A program made the position numbers and the translations under genes. A stretch of 54,521 nucleotides of DNA, taken from Flavobacteriales bacterium. Its GTDB lineage: Bacteria > Bacteroidota > Bacteroidia > Flavobacteriales_F > PHOS-HE28. The notes below the pieces were generated by a model. The model made no database searches, had not been told where the DNA came from, and saw only the letters and a program-made list of their open reading frames with translations. This document shows, in pieces, positions 52,036 to 54,236 of this stretch. Location of the stretch: assembly GCA_020847755.1 (NCBI GenBank), contig JADLBK010000061.1, forward strand, positions 1 to 54,521, in the 5' to 3' direction. Each line of letters begins with the position of its first letter. Position 1 is the stretch's first letter.

Positions 52036-52269
52036 ATGGAACGCTCGCAACTCGGCCGCATCACCATCAGCCCCAGCATCTGCCACGGCAAGCCGTGTGT
52101 GCGCGGCATGCGCTGGCCCGTGGAGGTGGTCATCGATATGCTCGGTGCGGGCATGAGCGCGGATGAGATCGTCCGGGAGCATCCTGAATTGCAGAACGAG
52201 GACATCCAGGCGTGCTTGAACTACGCCAAGCTCACCGTATCCGGTCATTCGCTCGGTGATGTGGCGTGA
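52036..52269 (+). CDS. DUF433 domain-containing antitoxin-like protein
   Basis: GRITISPSICHGKPCVRGMRWPVEVVIDMLGAGMSADEIVREHPELQNEDIQACLNYA. Confidence 0.9.
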   Translation: MERSQLGRITISPSICHGKPCVRGMRWPVEVVIDMLGAGMSADEIVREHPELQNEDIQACLNYAKLTVSGHSLGDVA

Positions 52270-52631
52270 TGCGCTTCCTCTGCGACGTCCATATCTCCAT
52301 CCAGCTCTGCAAGCGCCTGTCCGAGGCTGGGCACAACTGCCAGCATGTGAACCGCCTGCCTGAGCGCTGGCATACCTCCGACCAGGACATCGCGCGCTTC
52401 GCAGACCTGGAGGACCGCATCCTCATCACCAAGGACTCCGACTTCCGCGATTCGTGCATCCTGCACAGCACGCCGCGCAAGCTCATCAAGGTGAACCTCG
52501 GCAACATCCCGCACCAGGTGCTCAGCGACCTGCTCTTCAAGAACCTCGGCGAACTGGCCCGCTTGAATGAACGCCCACGCTTCCTGGTCGAGGCGGACAT
52601 CGCCCGCATGTCCGTGATCGAGCTGGGTTGA
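52269..52631 (+). CDS. DUF5615 family PIN-like toxin protein
   Basis: MRFLCDVHISIQLCKRLSEAGHNCQHV...SDQDIARFADLEDRILITKDSDF; TGATG overlap with DUF433 gene. Confidence 0.88.
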   Translation: MRFLCDVHISIQLCKRLSEAGHNCQHVNRLPERWHTSDQDIARFADLEDRILITKDSDFRDSCILHSTPRKLIKVNLGNIPHQVLSDLLFKNLGELARLNERPRFLVEADIARMSVIELG

Positions 52632-53053: not shown

Positions 53054-54130
53054 TCATTCGCTCAGCTCGCGTTCGATGTCCTTCACGCTCGGTAATGCAC
53101 CGCGCAGGCGCTTGGGCAAGGTAGCCACCAACCGCGTACGCCATTCCGCCACCCCGATGGGCTTGGCCACGTCGCGCAACGCGTACTCCACCACGAGCTT
53201 GTCGTTGTCCTTGCACAGCAGCAGCCCGATGGATGGCTTGTCGTCCGGATGGCGCATCCGCGCATCCACGGCGGTGAGGTAGAAGTTCATCTTGCCCGCG
53301 TGCTCCGGCTCGAAGGCCTCCATCTTCAGGTCCACCACCACATAGCAGCGGAGCTTCAAGTGGTAGAAGAGCAGGTCCACCTTGTACTCCTTACGCCCCA
53401 CCTTCAACGGCACCTGCCTGCCCACGAAGGCGAAGCCGGAGCCCAGTTCGAGCAGCACCTTCTGGATGTGGTCCACCAGCGCCTGCTCCAGATCGCGCTC
53501 ACGCATGTCGGCAGCGATCCCGAGGAACTCGAAGGTGTAGGGATCCTTCAGGGTTTGCTGCGCCAGGTCGGAACGGTCGGCGGGGAGCGTGCGCTTGAAG
53601 TTGGTGATGGCCCTGCCCTGTCGGCGATGCGCATGCGTGGCGATCTGTGCATCGAGCACGGCACGGCTCCATCCGTGGGCGATGGTGGCCTGCGCGTACC
53701 ACAGGCGGTGCTCGGGCTTCTTCAACTTGCTGAGGAGCAATACGTTGTGGCCCCATGGAATTTGTGCAACAAGCTGTTGCACAATTGATCCATCCCGGTA
53801 GGCTTCGGCGAAGGCACGCATATATTTCATGTTCCGCTCGCTCAAGCCGCCCATTCCGGGGAACTCCCGATGGAGGTCCTTTGCCAGTCGTTCCACCACC
53901 TTGCTGCCCCAGCCTTCCTTGTCCTGCCGCTCCCTGATCTCCCTGCCGATGTACCAATAGAGCATCACCAGCTCGCTGTTCACAGCAAGCGCAGCCCTGA
54001 GCTGCGCGGCTCGGATGCGCGCCTTCACGGCCTCGAGCACGGCCGCGTAGTTCTTCGGAAGTACGCTCACCGCGCCCCTTCCAGCCTTCGCGCTTCGCCG
54101 TGATGCGGACCTCTTCTTCGCCACTGGCAT
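53054..54130 (-). CDS. DUF1016/YhcG family protein with PDDEXK-type nuclease domain
   Basis: LYWYIGREIRERQDKEGWGSKVVERLAKDLHREFPGMGGLSERNMKYMRAFAEAY...VAQIPWGHN; C-terminal YKVDLLFYHLKLRCYVVVDLKMEAFEPEHAGKMNFYL. Confidence 0.93.
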   Translation of the reverse strand: MPVAKKRSASRRSAKAGRGAVSVLPKNYAAVLEAVKARIRAAQLRAALAVNSELVMLYWYIGREIRERQDKEGWGSKVVERLAKDLHREFPGMGGLSERNMKYMRAFAEAYRDGSIVQQLVAQIPWGHNVLLLSKLKKPEHRLWYAQATIAHGWSRAVLDAQIATHAHRRQGRAITNFKRTLPADRSDLAQQTLKDPYTFEFLGIAADMRERDLEQALVDHIQKVLLELGSGFAFVGRQVPLKVGRKEYKVDLLFYHLKLRCYVVVDLKMEAFEPEHAGKMNFYLTAVDARMRHPDDKPSIGLLLCKDNDKLVVEYALRDVAKPIGVAEWRTRLVATLPKRLRGALPSVKDIERELSE

Positions 54131-54163
54131 GTGACCAAGATAACGGCGCTGCCACTTTGCGGT

Positions 54164-54190
54164 AATTGTGCAACAGCCTGTTGCACAATT
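54164..54190. promoter_or_regulatory. Perfect 27-bp dyad upstream of DUF1016 gene
   Basis: AATTGTGCAACAG-C-CTGTTGCACAATT, 34 bp upstream of the start codon. Confidence 0.8.
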
Positions 54191-54211
54191 GCGGCCACTG
54201 CTCTACAGCCT

Positions 54212-54236
54212 ATTGTCCAACAGGCTGTTGGACGAT
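54212..54236. promoter_or_regulatory. Second near-perfect 25-bp dyad upstream of DUF1016 gene
   Basis: ATTGTCCAACAG-G-CTGTTGGACGAT; 11 of 12 arm positions symmetric; centre 47 bp from the first dyad centre. Confidence 0.78.

Follow-up and report, generated by a model that had tools for sequence, protein, structure and literature searches.

The placing of a regulatory site inside a coding sequence is exemplified by lac O2, the intragenic operator in lacZ. I-TevI, the homing endonuclease of phage T4, is autorepressing, and its operator, which overlaps the promoter, copies a homing site that lies elsewhere (PMC2988022). Moreover, protein-coding palindromes occur as dispersed repeats, namely the Rickettsia palindromic elements (PMC4316617) and the PARCELs (PMC2996958). 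YhcG has been described as a PD-(D/E)XK protein with a helical N-terminal domain of unknown role (PMC1189080), and DUF1016/YhcG/PDC-S02 proteins are published as predicted nucleases whose N-terminal domain is unknown. In the literature on DUF1016, YhcG, PDC-S02, and coding palindromes, with subscription sources covered incompletely, no palindrome, DNA code, or self-site was found for these proteins, nor any described family that carries the site of its own product inside the coding sequence of nearly every member.

The window, that is, the whole stretch of 54,521 nucleotides analysed here from a Flavobacteriales bacterium, contains a DUF1016/YhcG gene for a predicted nuclease of 358 aa at 53054–54130 on the minus strand, identified by its open reading frame, Pfam, and PADLOC. 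The protein is a member of the family by both Pfam profiles, PF17761 (E 9.5e-46; 155.7 bits against a curated cut-off of 32.8) and PF06250 (E 6.4e-65; 218.2 bits against 32.5). Its YhcG_C domain (53090–53560, minus strand), assigned by Pfam, Foldseek, and motif, carries the residues E211, D252, D267, and K269 of a predicted E-D-(E/D)xK motif, which 219 of 220 full-length homologues keep intact, and Foldseek on the window protein leads to EndoMS-type nucleases, motif and fold together placing the predicted nuclease in the PD-(D/E)XK superfamily. The PADLOC profile matched is PDC-S02, a candidate anti-phage defence family. The DUF1016_N domain (53621–54028, minus strand), matched by Pfam/HMM, is by its co-variation with the half-site the proposed reader of the palindromes described below and is fused to the nuclease domain in almost every family member. 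No solved relative of DUF1016_N was found by sequence, and the Foldseek matches with E < 0.001 cover only about 130 residues and are all nucleases, so the DNA-binding fold of the N-domain is left without a name. Adjoining the gene, at 52036–52631 on the plus strand, are overlapping DUF433 and DUF5615 genes that resemble a toxin–antitoxin pair.

Three dyads lie at this locus, exactly where a sequence-only reading had placed them, and are given here without strand, with k denoting the position counted from the dyad centre. Dyad 1, proximal to the promoter (54164–54190), is a perfect palindrome of 13+1+13 bases, conserved in the genus, whose half-site is the same as that of the in-gene dyad. Dyad 2, distal to the promoter (54212–54236), shows the symmetric G-to-C swap at k7 that had been described for it, but also one mismatched pair, and with C at k7 it does not match the code found for Arg99 proteins (see below); a C-type dyad is also present in L005, L006, L007, and L009, which belong to the window's genus. 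The internal dyad (53762–53784), of 10+3+10 bases, lies inside the DUF1016/YhcG gene over the codons SIVQQLVAQIPWG, with its centre, 53773, on the first base of codon 120 and the half-site GTGCAACA from k9 to k2; it was assigned by sequence and by its homologous position in the family. The centres of dyads 1 and 2 lie 47 and 94 bp before the ATG, 47 bp from each other, and the two dyads together span about 35–110 bp before it. A Bacteroidota -7-like box, TATCTTGG, recognised by eye only, lies at 54135–54142 on the minus strand, 21 bp from dyad 1, and a sigma-70 promoter scan found nothing. Allowing at most three mismatches, the 20-base core has three copies in the window against 0.00 expected from 100 shuffles, and the same three are the only copies in the whole 3.67-Mb assembly (83% complete), which holds none of the unrelated genome-wide copies that would have detached the dyads from DUF1016. 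The three dyads are real, far beyond chance, and the local case of a family-wide feature.

Homologues were gathered from relatives, from 80 genome contigs that represent many phyla and include Methanosaeta, from viral contigs, and by two phylum-wide searches, and were aligned to a profile before dyad positions were compared. The best palindrome of the matched region fell at one spot, just before an L-[PS]-W motif, in 128 of 139 genes. Among 239 non-redundant DUF1016/YhcG genes, a larger set drawn from bacteria, one archaeon, and viral contigs, the homologous coding spot bears a dyad with a score of at least 8 in 208 and is the top-scoring place of the gene in 199, while such a score is reached anywhere else in only 47; the dyad centre falls on the first codon base in 205 of the 208 genes with a strong dyad, and 17 of the 239 lack a good one. 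The in-gene dyad, which the sequence-only reading had seen at one locus, is thus real and conserved across the family, a breadth which that reading had missed. The palindromes themselves are very diverse, with 134 different 8-base half-sites among 219 dyads, and the peptides that they encode differ widely (LQPLVGE and IRQSLTAE, for example), although IVQQxVAQ recurs fairly often in one large subfamily. When pairing was counted in a relaxed way, two to four dyads stood at the spot in 33 genes, spaced by multiples of three in 35 of 37 cases, and the half-sites of one such gene match at 235 of 336 positions. In E. coli K-12, yhcG contains three dyads, 39 bp apart, and a fourth follows 27 bp after the stop codon; these GCAGACNNNGTCTGC dyads all have a GCAGAC- or CCAGAC-type half-site. 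Moreover, in one Bacteroidota genus (g94; G277, G305, G372, and others) up to 14 DUF1016_N matches occur per 2.5–3.0-Mb genome, and in a sample of 19 paralogue pairs from 24 genomes no half-site was shared between paralogues.

The symmetry of the in-gene site exceeds what codon choice would give, a check that had been proposed at the outset. In 121 genes included whatever the strength of their palindrome, k2–k9 are paired in 74–91% of cases against 38–60% expected from column composition, with little or no excess at k1 and beyond k12, and mean pairing is 10.5 of 14 positions against 6.1 after synonymous shuffling. When the best centre was chosen again in each synonymous shuffle, p < 0.05 was obtained in 203 of 239 genes. 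Among genes with a dyad score of at least 7, mismatches read on the sense strand are A.C in 42 cases and G.T in 21; since G.T is not favoured over A.C, the dyad seems to be kept as duplex DNA and not as an RNA hairpin. These sequence comparisons support selection on the dyad as duplex DNA, a selection that overrides synonymous and some amino-acid choices.

The half-site bases co-vary with residues of DUF1016_N. Mutual information with average-product correction was calculated for genes with a dyad score of at least 7, as were the pair tables, and the dyad codons were excluded; half-site bases were linked to a small number of residues, with these z values: k3–G127 (11.7), k7–R99 (10.5), k3–R156 (10.0), k2–G127 (8.5), k5–Y103 (7.3), k4–V130 (6.2), k9–K102 (6.1), and k2–A157 (5.8). 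This is as strong as the strongest pairs within the protein, where 45,451 residue pairs give a top z of 10.2 and 71 values above 5. Arg99 goes with G at k7 in 107 of 110 genes, Gly127 with C at k3 in 63 of 63, Arg at 157 with C at k2 in 71 of 71, Arg at 103 with C at k5 in 29 of 33, and Tyr103 with A at k5 in 94 of 98, pairings that look like protein–DNA chemistry in that Arg goes with a G of one of the two strands. As a control for descent, 101 disjoint closest pairs were formed by the nuclease domain only, and k7–R99 (p = 7e-15), k6–Y103 (2e-10), k3–G127 (1e-8), and k9–K102 (4e-6) each came out as the best association of all columns tested. From genes less than 50% identical, the base is predicted correctly in 92% of cases at k3, 84% at k2, and 75% at k4, while single-residue rules from such distant genes do not predict k6 and k8 and predict k9 weakly; E. 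coli YhcG, with Lys99 and mostly G at k7, fits the code in part. The outer bases pair with residues 99–103 and the inner ones with 127, 130, 156, and 157, all of which an AlphaFold model (mean pLDDT 81) puts at or near the starts of helices 98–110, 126–135, and 156–164. The corresponding codons, on the minus strand, are those of residues 99–103 (53822–53836; proposed contacts k5–k9), 127–130 (53741–53752; k2–k4), and 156–157 (53660–53665; k2–k3). Co-evolution of dyad specificity with residues at three predicted helix starts is supported by these comparisons, and the protein almost certainly recognises the site of its own gene; recognition of a cognate site by the product of the gene itself, one mark of an autoregulatory operator, is found here as judged by co-variation only.

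In the window's genus, in-gene k7 is G where the protein has Arg99 (L004, L005, L007, L010) and C where it has Ser99 (L006, L008, L009). In L246, an Arg99 protein, k7 is G in the gene and upstream alike, while its Ser99 relatives L012 and L013 have C at k7 in two upstream dyads and one downstream dyad and keep G in the in-gene dyad, which in L013 has one further mismatch. The flanking dyads of these three loci track residue 99, and thus noncoding sites go with the protein and the position of the site can shift. Upstream dyads in homologues, which the sequence-only reading had raised, are found mainly in the window's genus, about 47 bp apart, and in a few lineages overall, the general feature being the in-gene dyad; the spacing of half-sites is off by 1 bp in some noncoding copies. 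Upstream of L006, L007, and L011 the dyads, at intervals of about 47 bp, are of up to three types (k7 = C, k7 = G, and TTTTGC), and just a part of them suits the present protein, as if older specificities had been kept.

The preferred interpretation, held as rather likely, is that DUF1016_N binds the palindromes of its own locus and thereby holds down its expression. DUF1016_N would read a palindromic DNA site in a sequence-specific manner, probably as a homodimer, and the site would be kept inside its own gene, near codon 120, with further copies in the promoter, downstream, or in tandem and in frame in some lineages. At promoter dyads the bound protein may block the -33 region, and the in-gene dyad could serve, whatever the promoter, as an intragenic operator or road-block carried along with the gene, so that the predicted nuclease would be kept low in whatever genome the gene enters. 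Such a dimer would repress at its own site without cleaving it. Autoregulation through promoter dyads and an intragenic operator appears most likely: upstream dyads lie about 35–110 bp before the ATG here, dyad 1 is 21 bp from the -7-like box, those of the genus are about 47 bp apart, and the core is confined to the locus in two genomes. Since promoter dyads are limited to few lineages, elsewhere regulation would have to rest on the in-gene site. Against this interpretation must be counted the misfit of dyad 2 to Arg99, the bases k6 and k8 that the rules leave unpredicted, the 1-bp differences in spacing, and the intact nuclease motif, as an active nuclease on its own gene might cut it. Of the operator or self-recognition target suggested by the sequence-only reading, recognition has held, through co-variation and the dyads that track residue 99, whereas regulation or cleavage is what we infer from it.

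An unlikely alternative is that the palindrome is a self-target, which the nuclease would cut or nick in its gene when a certain condition arises (a second copy of the site, infection, or replication), with copy control, exclusion of incoming DNA of the same allele, or suicide as the outcome. With the motif intact in all but one full-length gene, conditional self-cleavage keeps some weight; the near-uniqueness of the site in the two genomes searched, the great diversity of half-sites, with none common to the sampled paralogues, and the position of reader codons and site within about 180 bp point in the same direction. However, selection maintains the site, though cutting would tend to remove it, and the noncoding promoter dyads follow the protein as operators would. 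If this alternative were true, the protein would be a self-addressed nuclease acting in allele-specific exclusion or self-destruction, with specificity and target inherited together through that close linkage. Less probable still is a control of nuclease activity in place of expression, in which the protein's own site would hold it inactive or assemble an active complex until phage infection changes its state; the candidate defence assignment and the fusion of both domains would suit such a role, but one or few sites per genome could hold only few molecules. A homing endonuclease gene, which breaks up its own recognition site and so makes its carrier immune, does not describe the locus, as the site is uninterrupted and intact inside the gene in most members.

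That the protein binds or processes the palindrome as an mRNA hairpin would agree with a dyad that is transcribed in every gene and with hairpins able to form, yet the tolerance of G.U expected of an RNA stem-loop element is not seen, G.T being the rarer mismatch, and dyads also stand upstream and downstream of genes, making this proposal very improbable. Hardly any more weight can be given to a small mobile palindromic element that inserts in frame and spreads in the manner of the Rickettsia palindromic elements. In its favour are the tandem in-frame copies and the orphan dyads of two viral contigs and one restriction–modification locus (L308, L309, L310), but specificity co-evolves with the protein, the three copies in the window's own genome are all at the locus, the complete Stutzerimonas kunmingensis genome has one, also at the locus, and the core is present in 2 of 396 Bacteroidota genomes. 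The many copies of a dispersed palindromic element (RPE, REP, or PARCEL) are lacking in both genomes in which uniqueness was assessed, where the core is locus-bound, and so the mobile element that the sequence-only reading had offered as a source of the segment lacks support as the main explanation, the few orphan copies apart. Finally, that a conserved peptide, IVQQxVAQ, merely happens to have palindromic codons is scarcely credible and is rejected, in spite of its frequency in the one subfamily, for the symmetry exceeds synonymous shuffling, base–residue co-variation holds in closest pairs, palindromes lie over unrelated peptides, and noncoding copies obey the code.

The orphan dyads differ in their surroundings. 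At L310:1501–1551 (G697:C1, about 3758551), a type I restriction operon carries two different dyads, TTTGTGCAACAACCTGTTGCACAAA and AATTTGGGCAGCAGCCTGCTGCCTAATT, in the gap that separates hsdM from a small gene; the 3 kb examined contain no DUF1016 gene, and the dyads are perhaps the remains of a lost one. At L309:5038–5066, the dyad CAATTGTGCAACAGCCTGTTGCACAAATT lies between tRNA-Trp and tRNA-Gly genes of a contig that resembles a phage, has 24 predicted tRNA genes, and shows no DUF1016 in 14.6 kb; it may be a decoy, a remnant, or chance. At L308:2411–2433, the same core is read in frame, as EIVQQDVAQ, within an unrelated protein of 824 aa from a viral contig.

The DUF1016 site resembles lac O2 in being a regulator's site inside a coding sequence, but lac O2 lies in that of another gene, whereas the DUF1016 site shares one gene with its reader, and the two co-evolve. 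Like the Rickettsia palindromic elements and PARCELs, it is palindromic DNA read in frame as protein, with tandem copies; unlike them, it is bound to one locus and one protein family, and its sequence follows the residues of the protein. I-TevI offers a parallel to what is proposed here for DUF1016: the part of this endonuclease that binds DNA also sits on an operator of its gene, a precedent for self-repression of a nuclease (PMC2988022). The DUF1016 site, by contrast, is carried within the coding region of almost all members, and no target apart from it is known. If the system is plain autorepression, its logic would be like that of I-TevI and its novelty would lie in a self-encoded, co-evolving site. 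The four dyads of E. coli K-12 yhcG make the preferred interpretation testable in that organism. For the orphan DUF1016_N domain this would mean a proposed function together with part of a base-by-residue recognition code, site and reader would change together across bacteria and archaea, and a predicted nuclease from a candidate defence gene would gain a specific DNA address in each genome.
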